Assembly (NCBI GenBank): GCA_020720325.1
Contig: DYOW01000002.1
Span: forward strand, 1 to 34,097
Length of the DNA stretch: 34,097 nucleotides
From: Desulfobulbus propionicus
Lineage (GTDB): Bacteria > Desulfobacterota > Dissulfuribacteria > Dissulfuribacterales > DYOW01
Direction of reading: 5' to 3'
The translations under genes and the position numbers were made by a program. The notes below the pieces were generated by a model, which was given only the letters and a program-made list of their open reading frames with translations, made no database searches and was not told where the DNA came from. Shown piece after piece: positions 3,958 through 18,188 of this stretch (position 1 is its first letter; every line of letters begins with the position of its first letter).

Positions 3958-5121
3958 TTAATCTGCCTTATTCCTTATGAAAGTTGGTATATCGTACTTG
4001 CTCCAGTCATAATCACCTGTGTCCGGATTTATATGGATATTTGTCTTGCAGCTTTCCCCACAGGTTTTGGTTGAACGTGAATTTTTAAATCTTTCAAGAG
4101 AAGTTACTTTATCCCCTTCATGTCCAAGAGCTTCTTTATGGGATAATTCACTGACAAGTGACTCGGCTTTTCCTATACCGGTTGCAATTACAGTCACTCT
4201 TAAATCGTCCCCAAGATTTTCATCATAAGTTGCGCCAAAAATAATATTTGCATCGTCATCTGCCTGTTCATTAATTGCCTGTGTAATCTCCATGATTTCA
4301 TCTGCCGTAAATGAATTTGGATTTCCTGCAATATTTAAGAGTATGCCCCTTGCGCCGTGGATGGATGTATCGCTTAATATAGGATTTTCAATTGCCATTA
4401 AAAGGGCTTCTTTTGCCCTTCTTTCTCCCTGCGCAATGCCTGTTCCCATAATTGCGATTCCCATCTGTTCCATAACTGTCTTAACATCGGCAAAGTCAAC
4501 ATTTATATAGCCCCTAACCATGATTATATCAGTTATGCCTTTTACAGCATAATAAAGCACTTCATCCACCTTTTGAAAAGCTTTGCCGATTGGCACTTTT
4601 GAAAAGACAGAAAGTATCTTGTCATTTGGTATGGTGATAATGGTGTCAACCTTTTTCTTAAGGTTATCAAGGCCTTCGGTCGCGTTTTTCATCCTTGTTT
4701 TACCCTCAAAGGAAAAAGGATTTGTCACAACTCCAACAGTTAATGCCCCAAGGTTTTTGCTTATCTCCGCGATAACCGGGGCAGCCCCTGTGCCTGTTCC
4801 GCCTCCCATGCCAGCTGTGATAAATACCATGTCACTACCCGAAAGCGCCTCGATTATATCCTTCTCACTTTCTTCAGCAGCCTCCCTTCCTATGACAGGC
4901 TTGCTTCCAGCGCCAAGCCCCCTTGTGCTCTTCGCGCCAAGCTGTATCTTGATATTTGCCTTTGATGCGTCAAGCGCCTGCTTGTCTGTGTTTGCAGCAA
5001 TAAATTCAACACCCTTTAACTGCGATTCAATCATGTTGTTTATTGCATTTCCACCGCCGCCGCCAATTCCTACAACCTTAATCTTTGTTGCAGAACATAA
5101 TTCTGAAAATTCAAAATCCAT
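3958..5121 (-). CDS. ftsZ: Cell division protein FtsZ
   Basis: Tubulin-like GTPase that forms the Z ring, 387 residues. The GTP-binding signature GGGTGTG is at 106-112. The catalytic synergy loop reads NVDFADVKTVM, with Asn207, Asp209 and Asp212 in the same positions as in E. coli. The globular part ends near residue 320. A short ~50-residue linker follows, and the conserved C-terminal peptide DIPTFIR at 377-383 should bind FtsA. The linker carries two cysteines (Cys354 and Cys358, CGESC), which is unusual. A strong ribosome binding site (AAGGAGGG at 5128-5135) lies six bases before the ATG, the best in the operon. This fits the need for more FtsZ than FtsA, whose stop is 23 bases upstream. 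Confidence 0.98.
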   Translation of the reverse strand: MDFEFSELCSATKIKVVGIGGGGGNAINNMIESQLKGVEFIAANTDKQALDASKANIKIQLGAKSTRGLGAGSKPVIGREAAEESEKDIIEALSGSDMVFITAGMGGGTGTGAAPVIAEISKNLGALTVGVVTNPFSFEGKTRMKNATEGLDNLKKKVDTIITIPNDKILSVFSKVPIGKAFQKVDEVLYYAVKGITDIIMVRGYINVDFADVKTVMEQMGIAIMGTGIAQGERRAKEALLMAIENPILSDTSIHGARGILLNIAGNPNSFTADEIMEITQAINEQADDDANIIFGATYDENLGDDLRVTVIATGIGKAESLVSELSHKEALGHEGDKVTSLERFKNSRSTKTCGESCKTNIHINPDTGDYDWSKYDIPTFIRNKAD

Positions 5122-5144: not shown

Positions 5145-6362
5145 TTAAAAATTAAAAATTTTTCTTACCTTATCCATAAATTTTTCACTCATAGAATCCA
5201 CTGATCTTACATCCCCTGTCTGCCTTGCTCCGTAGATTATCAAACCAAGAACTGTCGCAAAAGAAGGATCTTCCACAAGGTCGGTTAATCCTGTAAAACC
5301 CTTTGGCGATGCAATCCTTGTTGGAAGCTGAAAGACCTGATCTGACATCTCTGCGAGTCCATTAATAAGGGAAGAGCCACCAGTTATCACTATGCCAGAG
5401 GCAAGTTTATCCTTATAGCCTGATTTAATAAGCTCAAGATCAATGATATTAAGCATTTCTTCAACCCTTGCCTCAAGAATTTCAGACAGGATGTGTCTGG
5501 GTAATTTTCTTGGTTTCCTGTCCCCAACTGATGGCACGTCAATTGTATCTTCCTTATTGACAAGATAGCTGAAACAGCAGCCATGCTCTATTTTTAATCT
5601 TTCCGCATCAGACATAGGTGTCTTAAGCCCAAGGGCAATATCGTTCGTAAGGTTATTGCCGCCTATACCCACAATTGAGGTGTGTTTTAATGTGCCTTCA
5701 ACATAAATGGCAAGGTCAGTTGTGCCGCCTCCAAAATCCACAAGAGCCACCCCAAGTTCCTTTTCTTCAGCAGTAAGAACTGACTCTGATGAGGCAATGG
5801 GCTGCAATACAATGTCTGTCACATTAATTCCCGCGCGTGTCGCGCATTTTATAAGATTTTGCAGATGTGATTTGGATGAAGTCACAATATGGACATTTAC
5901 CTGTAGTCTCATTCCCACCATTCCAACAGGGTCGAGTATGCCGTTTTGATCATCAACAATAAATTCCTGAGGGAGCACATGGATTACTTCCCTGTCTGAG
6001 GGAATGTTTATTGCCTGAGCAGCTTCAATTACTCTTGTAACATCTTCCTGTGTGATTTCCTTATTTTTTACTGTTATAAGCCCATTGCTGTTTATACCTT
6101 TTATATGGCTTCCTGCAATGCCAAGATAAGCAGATTTAATCTGATAACCAGACATTAATTCAGCTTCATTTAACGCATTTCTTATAGATGTGACTGTGCT
6201 TTCAACATTTGTTATAATGCCTTTTTTTAAGCCGCCAAGTGAAGGTTGTTTGCCAACTCCCAAAATTTTTATGTCATCATTGGATAATTCTGCTATTACA
6301 ACATAAATTTTTGTTGTTCCTATATCCAATCCAACTACCACAGGATTATTCTTTGCCGTCAT
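5145..6362 (-). CDS. ftsA: Cell division protein FtsA
   Basis: Actin-like protein that tethers FtsZ to the membrane, 405 residues. Phosphate-1 motif GLDIGTTKI is at 11-19, and the phosphate-2 segment LVDFGGGTTDLAIY follows the inserted 1C domain that is typical of FtsA. The extreme C-terminus, SEKFMDKVRKIFNF, is a plausible amphipathic membrane-targeting helix with Phe on one face and Lys/Arg on the other. The ATG lies two bases after the ftsQ stop, with GGGGA inside the ftsQ end serving as ribosome binding site. Order ftsQ-ftsA-ftsZ is the standard dcw arrangement. Confidence 0.97.
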   Translation of the reverse strand: MTAKNNPVVVGLDIGTTKIYVVIAELSNDDIKILGVGKQPSLGGLKKGIITNVESTVTSIRNALNEAELMSGYQIKSAYLGIAGSHIKGINSNGLITVKNKEITQEDVTRVIEAAQAINIPSDREVIHVLPQEFIVDDQNGILDPVGMVGMRLQVNVHIVTSSKSHLQNLIKCATRAGINVTDIVLQPIASSESVLTAEEKELGVALVDFGGGTTDLAIYVEGTLKHTSIVGIGGNNLTNDIALGLKTPMSDAERLKIEHGCCFSYLVNKEDTIDVPSVGDRKPRKLPRHILSEILEARVEEMLNIIDLELIKSGYKDKLASGIVITGGSSLINGLAEMSDQVFQLPTRIASPKGFTGLTDLVEDPSFATVLGLIIYGARQTGDVRSVDSMSEKFMDKVRKIFNF

Positions 6363-6364
6363 AT

Positions 6365-7189
6365 TTATTCCCCAAAACTCGCATAATAAAGTTTTTTATC
6401 TGTATTTATTACAATTTTTTTTGTTTTTTCATATAAGCCTGAACGGTATAAATGATTCAGCACTGATTCCAGTCTTGAAAAATCGTTTTTTAAGTTTGTT
6501 ATCTTCATCTGTATAGGAATACCATTATCATTTGTATAAATTGTAAAATATTTATTATCTTTACAATTTATCTCACTTATATTATTCATACCCAGTATGC
6601 GTATTCCTTTTGAGGAGTATTTAAGAAAATCTATAGCAGTAATGGCATATTCAGGTAGTGTGTTTGATAATATTTCTTCTTTTTTTATACCTGTAAGAAT
6701 TGGCAGATTAATGTTATCATCAGCATTAAATTTACTATAAATTCTGCCTTTTTCATTTATATAATATAGCGCATCAAGATTTATAAGGGCAACAGGTTTA
6801 TTTTCCTGAATATGAATAATTATTTTATCAGGATATTTTTTTAAGATATTAGCATCATATACGAGATTATTTTTTTTAATATTAGTTATAATAGTATCTT
6901 TATTGGTAAAAATACTTGTTTTACTAAGTATGATCCCTGAATTTTTTATTATTTCCTCATAACTTAAAATCTCATTGCCTTTTACTTCAATGCTTGATAT
7001 ATTAAATAATTTGATATTGCTTGTATGTTTTGTTATATATGGATAAATAAAAAAACCACCCATAACAAGAGTTATGATGAGAAAAGACATTAATATATAT
7101 TTATATAAAAATGAAAAATCTTGTCTTTCCTTTCTTGACCTTGCCTGGTCTTTATATTTTTTATTATACATATATGTGCTTTTATACAT
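6365..7189 (-). CDS. ftsQ: Cell division protein FtsQ (POTRA domain)
   Basis: A bitopic division protein of 274 residues. It has a short basic cytoplasmic tail, one membrane segment at about 30-51, then a periplasmic POTRA domain (about 62-130, beginning LFNISSIEVKGNEILSYEEI) and the FtsQ beta domain. FtsQ links FtsL/FtsB to the rest of the divisome. Composition is rich in Ile, Asn and Lys, more AT-driven than the neighbouring mur genes. No good ribosome binding site precedes the ATG, which follows the murB stop by three bases. A second in-frame ATG six codons later would also leave the membrane segment intact, so the exact start is open. No ddl gene is present next to it, unlike in many dcw clusters. 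Confidence 0.9.
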   Translation of the reverse strand: MYKSTYMYNKKYKDQARSRKERQDFSFLYKYILMSFLIITLVMGGFFIYPYITKHTSNIKLFNISSIEVKGNEILSYEEIIKNSGIILSKTSIFTNKDTIITNIKKNNLVYDANILKKYPDKIIIHIQENKPVALINLDALYYINEKGRIYSKFNADDNINLPILTGIKKEEILSNTLPEYAITAIDFLKYSSKGIRILGMNNISEINCKDNKYFTIYTNDNGIPIQMKITNLKNDFSRLESVLNHLYRSGLYEKTKKIVINTDKKLYYASFGE

Positions 7190-12056: not shown

Positions 12057-13132
12057 CTTAGTTTTAGTGTGCTTATTGCGATAAGTCCAAGAATAAGTGA
12101 AATAATCCAGAACCTCACTATAACCTTGGGTTCTTTCCAGCCAGAAAGTTCAAAATGATGATGAATTGGAGCCATCTTAAATATGCGTTCACCGCCGCTT
12201 AACTTAAAGTAACCCACCTGCATCATAACAGACAGCGCCTCCATAACAAAGACACCGCCAACTATTACAAGCAAAATCTCCTGTTTAACAAGTATTGCCA
12301 CAGCTCCAAGGGCGCCTCCCAGTGAAAGCGAACCCACATCGCCCATGAAAATACTCGCAGGATATGTGTTATACCACAGAAAACCAATGCCAGCCCCAAC
12401 CATTGCGGCGCAAAAAATTGTAAGTTCCCCCACCCCTGTCACAAATGGTATCTGCAGGTATTCGGCAATCCTAACGTTTCCGGCAAAATAGCTAAAAAGC
12501 ACATAAACAGCAGAGGCGACTATAAAAGGGCCAATTGCAAGGCCGTCAAGACCGTCAGTAAGGTTTACTGCATTTGAACATCCAACCACAACAAACGGCG
12601 CAAAAATCATATAGGCATAACCTATATCAGGTCTGATATTTTTAAAAAATGGAAGGCTTAGTTTTGTATCCCAGTTATTAAAATACATAAGCGCAAGGGA
12701 TGCAACAATCACAAATGATATTTGCAGCGCCATTTTGCCCCTTGCAGACAGTCCTTTTGTATTTTTTCTGCTTATTTTCCTGTAGTCGTCAATAAAACCT
12801 ATTCCTGCAAAAGCCACAAGTATAAATAAAACAAGCCATGTATAATGATTTGTAAGGTCAGACCACAGAAGGGCGCTAACACTTATTGAGAAAACAATAA
12901 GAATTCCACCCATACTTGGTGTTCCAGCCTTGGCAAGGTGTGATTTTGGCCCGTCATCCCTTATTATCTGACCCATTTGCAATTTTTGCATTTTTTTAAT
13001 AAACCATGGTCCCAAAAACAACATAAGGAAAAGCGATGTTAAAGCAGCATAAATGCTCCGAAATGTTATGTACTTAAATACATTAAATATTATATATATA
13101 TCTGATAATGGGTAAAATAAATGAAAAAGCAT
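12053..13132 (-). CDS. mraY: Phospho-N-acetylmuramoyl-pentapeptide transferase MraY
   Basis: Polytopic membrane enzyme that transfers phospho-MurNAc-pentapeptide to undecaprenyl phosphate, giving lipid I. It has 359 residues and about ten membrane segments. Signatures are [18 protein letters not shown] near the start, the FIDDYRK aspartate pair, [10 protein letters not shown] and the late [13 protein letters not shown] histidine cluster. All expected catalytic residues are present. Its ATG shares one base with the murE-murF stop (TAATG), and AAAAGGA in that gene's end serves as ribosome binding site. Confidence 0.98.
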
Positions 13133-16131
13133 TAATCCTTTTCCTTAAACTTATCAATAATAAAATCCGCTGCTTTTCTAAGTCCAATTGAATTTGATGC
13201 CTTGAGCAAAACAGCGCTGTCTGCAAACATCGCCTTAAGGTCACATTTTGAAAGCCAATCAATCAAAAGTTCAACATTATTAAAGTGTGTGATGTTAACC
13301 CTTTTAAGGTATGGGCTTTCATTAAAATACATAAAATTTTCACCCACATAAATAACTTCGTCAATGCCTGTGCCAAAAACAGAAGCGCCAAGTTCTTTAT
13401 GATATATGTGTGTGTTTTCACCAAGCTCAAGCATATCTCCGATTATTGCAATCTTTTTGGTATTTTTTCTTACTGCAATAAGGTTTTCCATTGCCTCTTT
13501 CATAGACGCAGGGCTTGCATTGTATGAATCATCAATAAGAAGAAAATTATTTGAAAGTGTGACAGGATTTAGCCTTCCCCTTACAGGCGCCACTTCTTCA
13601 AGGGCGTCTTTTATATCCCCTGTGGAGATTCCAAGGATATGACCTATGGCTATTGCGGATAAGGCATTTTGAACAGATGCCCTTCCCATAGTCTTAAGAT
13701 TTATTTCAATTTCCACACCCATGAGGTCTATAACAGCGCTGGTTTCTCCTTTTTCAGTTATGCGCCAGTTTTTGCAGCAAACAATCTGTTCAATATTATT
13801 TGAATCTTCCCCGCGCCTTTCAAAGGAAAATCCCAACTGCTGGCAGGAAAAATCCCCTGATAATTCCATAAGTATTGGGTCATCCATATTGATTAGGGCA
13901 ATATCTGTTTCAAGAAGGCTTTCAAAGAGGGCTTTCTTTTCATTTATAACCCCGTTAATTCCTCCAAGATACTCAAGATGCGCCGGCTGAATTGTGGTGA
14001 TAAGTCCTATCTGGGGACGGGCAATCTCACAAAGCCTTGAAATTTCGCCTTTTTGATTCATACCCATCTCAAGCGCCGCCCATTCGTGAAAAGGGGTTGC
14101 GCCAAGAAGAGTTAATGGAAGTCCTATAAGGTTATTAAAATTACCCTTTGTCTTAAGTGTATCAAATTTTTTAGCGACAACAGCCGCGATAAATTCCTTT
14201 GAAGATGTCTTGCCGCAGCTTCCTGTTATGCCTATAGTCTTTAATCCAAGTCTTTCCCTGTGCCATTTTGCAAGGTCTCCAAGGGCATGTAAAGTATCCT
14301 CAACACCGATTATTGTAACATTGCTGTTTCTGTATTTTGATGCAAGGTCATATCTTTTTCTGTCAATAACAAGGGCAGACACGCCTTTTTTAACGGCTTC
14401 GTCAAGATAATCATGGGCGTCAAATCTTTCGCCTTTTAATGCCACAAAAAGATTTGCGAATTTAAGGTTTCTTGTGTCAGTGGAAATACCCATAAAAATA
14501 TTATCAGAGTCACCAGCAAGCATTGTTCCTTCAATTTGGGACATTATCTGGTCAACCTTTGCGGAAAGTTTATAGCCTGACGATATTTCAGATAAAATCT
14601 CAACGGAATTAATATTTGAGCAGGCGGCTTTTATTTCTTCATGGTCAAGAAATCTCTCTTTTTTATCCCCGATAATCTGGTAATCCTCATGTCCCTTTCC
14701 GGCAATAAGGATGCAATCTCCCTGTTTTGCGAGCATTGCCGCGGCTTTTATGGCAGGCCTTCTGTCAGGAATCACCATAAATTTATCTTTATTTATAATG
14801 TTATATCCTGAAAGAGCGTCAGTTCCCTTTAATATATCAAAAATTATGCTGTCAGGGTCTTCGGAGCGCGGATTATCAGAGGTTATAATCACATGGTCAG
14901 CATAAACACCGGCAATTTCAGCCATTACAGACCTTTTATCCCTGTCCCTGTCGCCTCCACAGCCAAAAACTACAATAAGCTTCTCATTAACAATCTCTCT
15001 TAATACGGAAAGCACATTTTTAAGCGCATCCGGCGTATGGGCATAGTCAACAAATGCAGATATATTTTTTTCAATGGAAACAGGCTCAAGCCTTCCAGGG
15101 ACAAACGTTATATTTTCAATGCCAGCCTTTATGTCTTCAATATTTATATCAAGGCTTATTCCCGCAGAAATTGCAGTTAATATATTTAAAAGATTATGTC
15201 TTCCGATAAGCCTGCTTTTTATATCAATTTCGCCCCTGGGGGTGATACATCTTGTTATAATGCCGTTAATGCCTGAATAAAACGCCCTTGGTCTGACCAT
15301 TGCGTCAGGACTGAAACCATAGCTTATCCTGTTTTTATCACCAGAAAGCGACTCCCAAAGCCTTATTCCATAATCATCGTCAATATTTACAACAGCAGTC
15401 TCATAATCATATTCGTTAAAAAGTCTTGATTTTGCAACAAAATAGTTTTCCATATTGATATGATAATCAAGATGATCGTGCGTAAGATTTGTAAAGATAA
15501 CAGTCTTAAACCTTAATCCAAGGACTCTTTTCTGGTCAAGGGCATGGGATGACACCTCCATTGCCACTGTCTTAACATCTTCAGTAAGCATATCATCAAG
15601 AATGCTGTTTATATCAATCTGATTTGGAGTGGTCAGATTTGATTGTACTAATTTATTATTATATCTCTGATTTATTGTGCCAATAACACCTGAATTTATT
15701 TTTGCCTGTTTCAGAATTGATTCAATTATATAAGTTGTGGTTGTCTTTCCGTTTGTTCCTGTTATGCCTATCAAATCAAGCTTTGTTGAAGGATTATCAT
15801 AATACATACTAGATACATAGCCCAAATAAGTATATGTGTCATCCACTGCAAAAACGGTTATATCATCTGTAACAACGTCTTTTATCTTAAAAAAATCATT
15901 TTTATTGACACAAATATATTTGGCTCCGTTCTTAATTGCAGCAGGAACAAATTCAATTCCATCTGATTTTGTCCCTTTTATTGCCACAAAAAGATTCCCT
16001 GGCTTAACTTTTCTGGAATCACAGGCAATTCCTGAGATAATATCCTTAAGACCGGATGATATTTCATTTAAAAGAATTTCTTCTTCAGATGTATTTTCAA
16101 AAAAATCATTAAAAAAGCGAAGATATTGCAT
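13132..16131 (-). CDS. murE-murF: MurE-MurF fusion ligase
   Basis: A single uninterrupted 999-residue frame carries two complete Mur ligases. Residues 1 to about 505 are Mur[17 protein letters not shown]-loop [12 protein letters not shown] (122-133), [13 protein letters not shown] and the DNPR motif at 419-422. DNPR marks meso-diaminopimelate as the added amino acid. Residues from about 515 to 999 are Mur[18 protein letters not shown]-loop [11 protein letters not shown] (634-644) and [11 protein letters not shown]. Together they add meso-DAP and then D-Ala-D-Ala to the UDP-MurNAc-dipeptide. The joint is a short region with no obvious long linker. AAGGAG nine bases before the ATG is a good ribosome binding site. 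MurE-MurF fusions are known elsewhere (for example Bordetella) but are uncommon. Confidence 0.96.
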
Positions 16132-16144
16132 AAGTCTTTACTCC

Positions 16145-17836
16145 TTATTTAAATTTTAGCTGACATAGGGTTTTATGATTAATAGTGGTTCCGGGCGACG
16201 GGTATTGGGAAATCACAATTCCTGATCCTTCAAAAGACATGCCACATGAGCCATGAAGGGTTTTAAGGGCTTTTCTCATGGACATTCCGGACATATCAGG
16301 CATATTTTTTAAAACAGTTATATCTTCTTTTTGCGTGAATAACTCATTTTTATTCTGTGTATTTTCTTGCATTGTCAGCAGTTTAATTTTACTTGCATTT
16401 TGCGCCATTTCAAGAAATCTTTTTACATAATTATTTATTTCCTGCTGGTTAAAATCCATGCCGTTTGCTGAAATTATATATGATACCACAGGGTTATTAA
16501 CAGGATAATGCCCTATGATAATCATCTGTCTGTTCTCTTCACCGGAAAGATTAGGATTAATGTCATATGTGACAATGGGTTTTCCGTTGCTCAGGCTAAG
16601 AATTTTCCTTAAAAAAGCGCTGTATTTTTTTAATTCAAGCCTTTCAGCTTCAACCTCTTTTATGCTGTCTTTATTAAAGGCGTTAAAGCTAAAAAAAGGT
16701 TTCACCAGTTTGCCATCATTTATCAGGGCTGAGTATGCCCTTAATATCTGCAAAGGAGTTCCGTAAACATCCAACAGGTTTCTCTGTCCTGAATTAACAG
16801 CATCCTTAATTAATCCTCCTGTTTCATCAGGCAGGTCAATTTCTGTGTTTTGTCCGAATCCAAGAGAGACAAACAGGGAATGAAAATTTCCTTCATCTGT
16901 TATTGCCTTTAACATATTTTCATCAAAATGGCTCAAAATTTTGATATTTTCATTGATATTTGAGGGAATATTTTCCTTTACATTAGCAGAAGTCAACTCA
17001 AAAGAAGGATTATTTTTTTTATATGTTATCCAGTTTGAAAGGAGTATTACGGGTATTGGTCTGAAATTCTGGGTTATTGAGTTATTATTTATTTTTTTAT
17101 TATCTTTTATAAATAAATCATGATCTATAAGGGGATAATTGGCCATAGCAAGTATTTCGCCGGTGTCTATACCCATAAATATTGCAGAACCGGTTCCCCT
17201 AACATTTGACAATAGCTTTCCAAGCTCTGTTTCAGCATTTTTCTGGAGATTTTTTTCCATTGTTATATGAAAGGAAGGATTAATTTCATAATTTTCAAAA
17301 ATCTGATTTCTTAAGCTATTTTCATAAAAATATTCTAATCCGTCAATGGCGCGGTTATCTTTATCCAAAAAACCAAGGATATTTAATGCAAGTTTATTAT
17401 GAGGATAAGCCCTTTTTTCCTTTCTGATTATCTCAGCGCCCTTAATCTCAAGTTTTTTTATCATTTCAACCTGCTGAAGGGTTAAATCATCGGCAATCAT
17501 GGTTATAATCCTTGCGTTTGAAACCTTGTTTATAAGCTCTTTTTCATCAACATACACAATAGCCGCAATGGATTTAATCCACGAAGAATTCTCTGATGTA
17601 TGGGAAGGAGAGATATATAATGAATAGGAAGCGTTATTACTGACAATTACTTCTCCGCTTCTGTCTATAATTACTGATCTTCTTATATTATTCGAATTAT
17701 GAAAGTTATAGGTGATAGATGACTGGGAATTTTCATTAAATATAAAGAGTTTAATGACAACAATGGATAAAAAAACAAAAAAGCTGATTTTTATAACATG
17801 AATGAAATATGTAGTCTTTTTTCGTTCTTTGCTCAT
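16145..17836 (-). CDS. ftsI: FtsI/PBP3-like division protein with degenerate transpeptidase motifs and C-terminal PASTA domain
   Basis: 563 residues in the ftsI position between ftsL and murE. One membrane segment (about 10-33) is followed by the PBP dimerisation/pedestal domain (RRSVIIDRSGEVIVS at 52-66, AYPHNKLALNILGFL at 143-157) and a transpeptidase-like domain. Family landmarks remain: GEILAMANYP (226-235), GFGQNTEIDLPDETGG (326-341) and TPLQILRAYSALINDG (360-375). The catalytic motifs do not. The place of EPGSTFK reads RPIPVIL (259-265), so the serine is Pro262 and the lysine Leu265. SxN is LSH (301-303) and KTG is KPI (419-421). A PASTA domain fills about 505-563. The frame is intact and collinear, so this is a pseudo-enzyme rather than a frameshifted gene. 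A structural or regulatory divisome role is inferred. Confidence 0.88.
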   Translation of the reverse strand: MSKERKKTTYFIHVIKISFFVFLSIVVIKLFIFNENSQSSITYNFHNSNNIRRSVIIDRSGEVIVSNNASYSLYISPSHTSENSSWIKSIAAIVYVDEKELINKVSNARIITMIADDLTLQQVEMIKKLEIKGAEIIRKEKRAYPHNKLALNILGFLDKDNRAIDGLEYFYENSLRNQIFENYEINPSFHITMEKNLQKNAETELGKLLSNVRGTGSAIFMGIDTGEILAMANYPLIDHDLFIKDNKKINNNSITQNFRPIPVILLSNWITYKKNNPSFELTSANVKENIPSNINENIKILSHFDENMLKAITDEGNFHSLFVSLGFGQNTEIDLPDETGGLIKDAVNSGQRNLLDVYGTPLQILRAYSALINDGKLVKPFFSFNAFNKDSIKEVEAERLELKKYSAFLRKILSLSNGKPIVTYDINPNLSGEENRQMIIIGHYPVNNPVVSYIISANGMDFNQQEINNYVKRFLEMAQNASKIKLLTMQENTQNKNELFTQKEDITVLKNMPDMSGMSMRKALKTLHGSCGMSFEGSGIVISQYPSPGTTINHKTLCQLKFK

Positions 17837-17840
17837 AGAT

Positions 17841-18188
17841 TTAATCCCTGAGCCTTATTGTTTGATTTTCTTTTGGCGGATGCAAGCCCAGTTTTTTACT
17901 GTATTCATTATGGAGTTTTTGGGAAAAAAAATTGTTTTTTTCATCTGTAAGCGCTTTATACTGATTTATTAACGTATTCTGCTGTTCTTTCTGAGCATAT
18001 ATTTCCTGAAGATTTTTATTATAAAGATTGTTTAATGTTATTGTTGTCAGGATAAAAAGAAGAAAAATAATAGAAATAACTGCAATTTTGATTATTAACA
18101 AATCAATATCGCCGGAGCTCACACCTGCGCTATAGCTTTTGGCGCTATAATGCCTTGTGTAACTGTAACTTGCCGCTCTATAAGACAT
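17841..18188 (-). CDS. ftsL: FtsL-like division protein
   Basis: A small bitopic protein of 115 residues. A ~28-residue cytoplasmic tail is followed by one membrane segment (about 29-52) and a periplasmic coiled-coil-like stretch rich in Gln, Lys and Leu. It ends in LGLHPPKENQTIRL, which resembles the conserved FtsL end (LGMxxPxxxQxxxL). Identification rests on this layout plus position between rsmH and ftsI. FtsL/FtsB/FtsQ normally regulate FtsW-FtsI. The start overlaps rsmH by 11 bases, with GGAGG nine bases upstream. Confidence 0.85.
   Translation of the reverse strand: MSYRAASYSYTRHYSAKSYSAGVSSGDIDLLIIKIAVISIIFLLFILTTITLNNLYNKNLQEIYAQKEQQNTLINQYKALTDEKNNFFSQKLHNEYSKKLGLHPPKENQTIRLRD

Follow-up and report, generated by a model that had tools for sequence, protein, structure and literature searches.

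A division-operon FtsI without its active site, and the coupled loss of FtsW, in a group of sulfur bacteria

The septal wall synthase FtsW-FtsI is regarded as near-universal, and its FtsI subunit as a prime beta-lactam target. The window analysed here is a stretch of 34,097 nucleotides (contig DYOW01000002.1) from an assembly of Desulfobulbus propionicus that GTDB places in the order Dissulfuribacterales. For the ftsI gene in its dcw operon, the initial annotation, made from the letters alone, claimed that all three penicillin-binding motifs had been lost. The locus raises the question of what this protein is, and how the division wall is built in a bacterium that carries it.

The FtsI gene and the dcw operon

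The gene and its parts are located in the window as follows.

16145..17836, minus strand: pseudo-FtsI (563 aa), with N-terminal membrane helix, pedestal (PBP_dimer), transpeptidase fold lacking its catalytic motifs, and PASTA tail
17354..17680, minus strand: pedestal / PBP_dimer domain (aa 53-161), kept (Pfam)
17042..17062, minus strand: RPIPVIL where EPGSTFK is expected (codons 259-265); SxxK is lost
16928..16936, minus strand: LSH where SSN is expected (codons 301-303)
16574..16582, minus strand: KPI (codons 419-421), taken for the KTG equivalent in the initial annotation; no KTG here or in the next strand
16178..16303, minus strand: PASTA domain (aa 512-553), kept (Pfam)

The reading frame was open over its 563 codons, and Pfam recognized the pedestal and the PASTA tail, both as first described. 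The Pfam Transpeptidase match was confined to a best stretch at residues 315-398. Alignment with intact FtsI proteins of the same phylum confirmed that all three motifs are gone, with R259-P-I-P262-V-I-L265 opposite EPGSTFK and L301-S-H303 opposite SSN, as had been proposed. The pairing of KPI with KTG was found to be doubtful, as the profile alignment placed residues 421-430 (IVTYDINPNL) opposite VAGKTGTAQ; KTG is absent under either alignment. In a profile-profile comparison with 22 intact FtsI proteins the match had a probability of 100 and an E-value of 1.9e-80. The AlphaFold2 model (pLDDT 79.6, pTM 0.72) had Pseudomonas aeruginosa PBP3 as its top PDB match in Foldseek (E 2e-26, probability 1.0), and the helix that normally bears SxxK was still present at residues 261-275. 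Based on these profile and structure matches, the protein derives from FtsI and keeps the FtsI fold. It has no active site and is not an enzyme of that kind. It shares with FtsI/PBP3 a dcw position flanked by ftsL and murE, the N-terminal membrane helix, the pedestal and the transpeptidase fold, and its PASTA tail is as in SpoVD/PBP2x-type relatives. Unlike FtsI/PBP3, it lacks SxxK, SxN and KTG, and its genome lacks the cognate SEDS partner FtsW.

The order of the operon is mraZ-rsmH-ftsL-like-ftsI-murE.murF (fused)-mraY-murD-murG-murC-murB-ftsQ-ftsA-ftsZ, and the features bearing on division are these.

17841..18188, minus strand: FtsL-like small membrane protein, kept (weak DivIC/FtsL matches and position)
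13132..16131, minus strand: MurE-MurF fusion, 999 aa
10638..10651, minus strand: 14-bp overlap of the murD end and the murG start, the ftsW place in relatives having ftsW
6365..7189, minus strand: FtsQ, kept
5145..6362, minus strand: FtsA, kept
3958..5121, minus strand: FtsZ, kept

No ftsW was present in the dcw cluster of the window, where murD and murG directly overlap; the initial annotation had overlooked this absence. The MurE-MurF fusion of about 1000 aa was also seen in most FtsW-less families of the order and in families f25 and f103 (further clusters with it are L035, L036, L037, L212-L215, L227-L231, L200 and L202). The two genes are not fused in f4, f5, f28, f39 and f72.

Coupled loss of FtsW and of the FtsI active site

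Within the same order, a single SEDS gene was found in 44 of 45 sampled genomes and none was detected in the remaining one (89% complete). SxxK, SxN and KTG were absent from all of the 28 FtsI homologues of the order that were aligned, and two sequences from outside the order in the same alignment had EPGSTFK, SSN and KTGT. The motif loss is thus not a matter of chance.

Next to the order, the phylum was surveyed with one dcw cluster per genome from about 100 genomes, of which 91 clusters were counted. Where a SEDS gene occupied the ftsW place, FtsI had PGSxxK in every case (59/59 clusters, 51 families) and KTG[TS] in 58/59. Among the clusters without ftsW, not one FtsI had SxxK (0/32, 16 families). 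The lone KTGT in these clusters (L202) is at residue 537 of 636, near the PASTA region and outside the transpeptidase domain. The count leaves aside f12, f47, f70 and f77 (no recognisable dcw layout), f11 (FtsI off the contig), two f39 clusters (no FtsI match) and L288, which ends before the ftsW place. The contig of L216 ends after murD, and FtsW absence was scored there from the genome-wide count, with one SEDS gene beside MrdA. In f29 (L203), f89 (L206) and f108 (L205) the single SEDS gene is the FtsW of the dcw cluster and FtsI is intact; RodA appears to be the SEDS protein lost in these families. Because they keep an intact FtsI, the loss of the FtsI active site is tied to FtsW and not to the number of SEDS genes.

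Closed genomes were also found in the FtsW-less set. One of these, with 2,322,224 bp, we take to be Thermodesulfatator indicus. The others have the published chromosome lengths of Dissulfurimicrobium hydrothermale (2,025,450 bp; PMC8780430), Desulfurivibrio alkaliphilus AHT2 (3,097,763 bp; PMC5016858) and Thermodesulfobacterium geofontis OPF15 (1,634,377 bp; PMC3624685). The Dissulfurimicrobium chromosome has a single SEDS gene and an FtsI without the three motifs. A dead FtsI together with a lost FtsW therefore occurs in many related sulfur bacteria besides the species of the window.

Part of this was known. Absence of ftsW has been noted in four Desulfobulbaceae including cable bacteria, where FtsI was taken as the active septal enzyme (PMC7873302), and for Thermodesulfobacteria (PMC8871954); the passages searched of these two papers hold no mention of a lost FtsI active site. 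In the open-access literature we found no report of a dead FtsI or of its coupling to FtsW loss.

In f35 and f63 the ftsW place is occupied by a polytopic gene of 262 aa, with the following copies.

L208: 15351-16133, plus strand: 262-aa gene
L207: 3695-4483, minus strand: 262-aa gene
L204: 4088-4879, minus strand: 262-aa gene
L240: 3388-4170, minus strand: 262-aa gene
L270: 3344-4126, minus strand: 262-aa gene
L271: 10305-11090, plus strand: 262-aa gene

This gene had no Pfam match and did not match a mixed RodA/FtsW profile. With an FtsW-only profile the match was weak and collinear with the TM2-TM3 part, reaching an hhalign E-value of 0.005 in one comparison (controls: 0.2-0.7 for shuffled sequences, 0.08 for MraY). 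A low-confidence model (pLDDT 56) had two RodA structures as its top Foldseek matches (probability 0.99 and 0.96; E 0.25), and the probability of the other PDB matches listed was at most 0.28. The catalytic loop between TM7 and TM8 is seemingly deleted. It is probable that the gene encodes a pseudo-FtsW without the catalytic loop, and this one lineage likely keeps remnants of both partners, a trimmed FtsI and a pseudo-FtsW.

Enzymes left for septal wall synthesis

As the FtsI active site and FtsW are both lost, the division wall must be built in another way. We searched the genome of the window (a 2.44-Mb draft of 204 contigs, 97.5% completeness) by protein family, and a canonical FtsW-FtsI pair was not found. 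Its only SEDS gene is a RodA equivalog (408 bits against a cut-off of 336.7) that scored below the FtsW cut-off and adjoins an MrdA (PBP2) equivalog of 695 bits; for this pair (C144), TIGR02210 and TIGR03423 were both above cut-off. Three genes have PF00905: MrdA, PBP1A and the pseudo-FtsI. The motifs of MrdA and PBP1A are intact (GSTFK, SCD and KTG in PBP2), and MrdA is the one intact class B PBP. The initial annotation had assigned crosslinking to another PBP or to L,D-transpeptidases. The former could be narrowed to one PBP2 and one PBP1A. This genome also encodes one L,D-transpeptidase, but when the search was made across group members three affected genomes had none, so that L,D-crosslinking is ruled out as the general replacement.

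An extra transpeptidase-domain protein of 420-470 aa was seen in f2 and f10 (L128: 1126-2448, plus strand; L141: 1402-2811, minus strand), with intact-looking motifs ASxFK, SxN and GKTG/GKSG. It was not found in the genome of the window.

We consider it probable (roughly three in four) that FtsI is now a non-catalytic part of the divisome and that PBP1A, RodA-PBP2 or both have taken over the making of the septal wall. Septal synthesis must come from these enzymes, as the genome search turned up no further glycosyltransferase-transpeptidase of their families. The septal synthase pair has lost its chemistry: ftsW was deleted, and FtsI, still in the dcw operon, turned into a pseudo-enzyme. The non-catalytic share of the FtsI job would be divisome assembly and regulation via FtsL/FtsQ, and in a scaffolding or regulatory role the pseudo-FtsI would connect the enzymes now doing the work with FtsL/FtsQ and the Z-ring. 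Septal glycan and crosslinks would come from the remaining synthases, most likely from the single class A PBP1A, possibly helped by PBP2.

By analogy we favour PBP1A over RodA-PBP2, since Clostridioides difficile, whose division relies on a class A PBP in place of FtsW/FtsI (PMC10693644), uses such an enzyme in that situation. In both cases a functional FtsW-FtsI pair is lacking, and what is left is one RodA-PBP2 pair together with a class A PBP. However, the dcw-encoded pair of C. difficile, SpoVE-SpoVD, serves sporulation, whereas the bacteria described here have a dead FtsI and no ftsW, are Gram-negative and keep FtsA. A structural role separate from catalysis has a parallel in Bacillus subtilis, where a catalytically dead PBP2B supports division and another PBP does the crosslinking (PMC5656894). 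That PBP2B (S309A) was made in the laboratory and owes its rescue to a second class B PBP (PBP3), whereas the dead FtsI described here is natural, old and accompanied by FtsW loss.

The pedestal domain is the part that contacts and activates the SEDS partner, as in RodA-PBP2 structures. The main rival to this reading starts from here: RodA may have moved into the place of FtsW, with the pseudo-FtsI as the activating subunit of a septal RodA, crosslinks made by PBP2 or PBP1A, and one SEDS enzyme serving both elongation and division. Only one SEDS enzyme is left, and the pedestal is kept in most of the pseudo-FtsI proteins; among the 32 FtsI of FtsW-less clusters PBP_dimer was found in 21, the transpeptidase domain in 19 and PASTA in 21, and no domain was kept in all lineages. 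However, the FtsI of f35 and f63 has been shortened to 248-345 aa and has lost the pedestal. In f2 and f10, moreover, the membrane anchor resembles a lipoprotein signal and ends with a lipobox-like Cys followed by F or L (VISGCFGE, SFVGCFW, LLPGCLG); such N-termini were seen in L006-L011, L014, L017, L020-L023, L026, L028-L031, L033, L036 and L037. Judged from this signal, the pseudo-FtsI of these two families may be lipidated and possibly directed to the outer membrane, and with such an anchor the helix contacting the SEDS protein would be gone. We hold a pairing of RodA with the pseudo-FtsI to be rather unlikely.

Evolutionary history, selection and meaning

A tree of six dcw proteins from 96 genomes needed three changes of FtsW state. 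The same number was obtained with IQ-TREE on a set of 36 genomes, where a single FtsW-less clade was rejected (AU p = 0.001). FtsW was lost at least twice and probably three times; because amino-acid composition varies, the claim is limited to these numbers.

The frame of the dead ftsI was open in every copy sampled, and the gene has stayed in place across family- and order-level distances. No stop codons or frameshifts were seen in the relatives. In 31 pairs of close relatives from f2 and f10 the dN/dS was 0.20-0.40; the frame is under purifying selection. New residues are conserved across the order at the former SxN, with W, P and W as the majority at the columns of L301, H303 and F304 (0.68 each), forming a W-x-P-W motif in most of the order, and G326, G328, E338 and G341 are invariant. 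The protein is nevertheless the least conserved one of the operon, with 22-28% identity between families compared to 36-69% for the others. Shortened forms occur in f39 (320-333 aa), f5 (410 aa) and f72 (about 455 aa) as well as in f35 and f63, and most of the transpeptidase domain is lost in f35, f39 and f63. As the protein evolves fast and no domain is kept universally, the retained function either differs between lineages or needs little sequence.

The short forms and the low identity would fit a plain decay of ftsI after the loss of ftsW. Against this stand the intact frames, the dN/dS values, the order-specific conserved residues and the persistence of the gene in distant lineages after at least two separate losses, which make decay improbable and support the original view of a pseudo-enzyme rather than a decaying gene. 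It is still less probable that the pseudo-FtsI crosslinks or binds peptidoglycan via a non-standard active site. The transpeptidase fold is largely kept and W-x-P-W is conserved, but within the order the SxxK position holds no conserved nucleophile, and f35, f39 and f63 are without most of the domain. That a canonical FtsW-FtsI pair was missed elsewhere in the 204-contig, incomplete draft is scarcely credible, as the single SEDS gene recurs in 44 of 45 relatives, the closed Dissulfurimicrobium chromosome (G005) among them, and the closed D. alkaliphilus and T. geofontis genomes show the same state.

Taken over the phylum, we lean towards a second kind of divisome with about three origins, in which loss of FtsW chemistry always goes together with loss of the FtsI active site, one or both remnants are kept structurally, and elongation or class A enzymes build the septum; in some families the dead FtsI would perhaps be a lipoprotein. 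Annotation likely labels many such genes as active FtsI, as was done for the Desulfobulbaceae (PMC7873302, in the passages searched), which leads to misleading pathway reconstruction. A large natural group, including cultured rod-shaped members, divides without FtsW/FtsI activity and keeps the FtsI protein. This system separates the structural role of FtsI from catalysis, and it allows asking which enzyme builds the septum in a cell that has only a single SEDS-bPBP pair and a single class A PBP.
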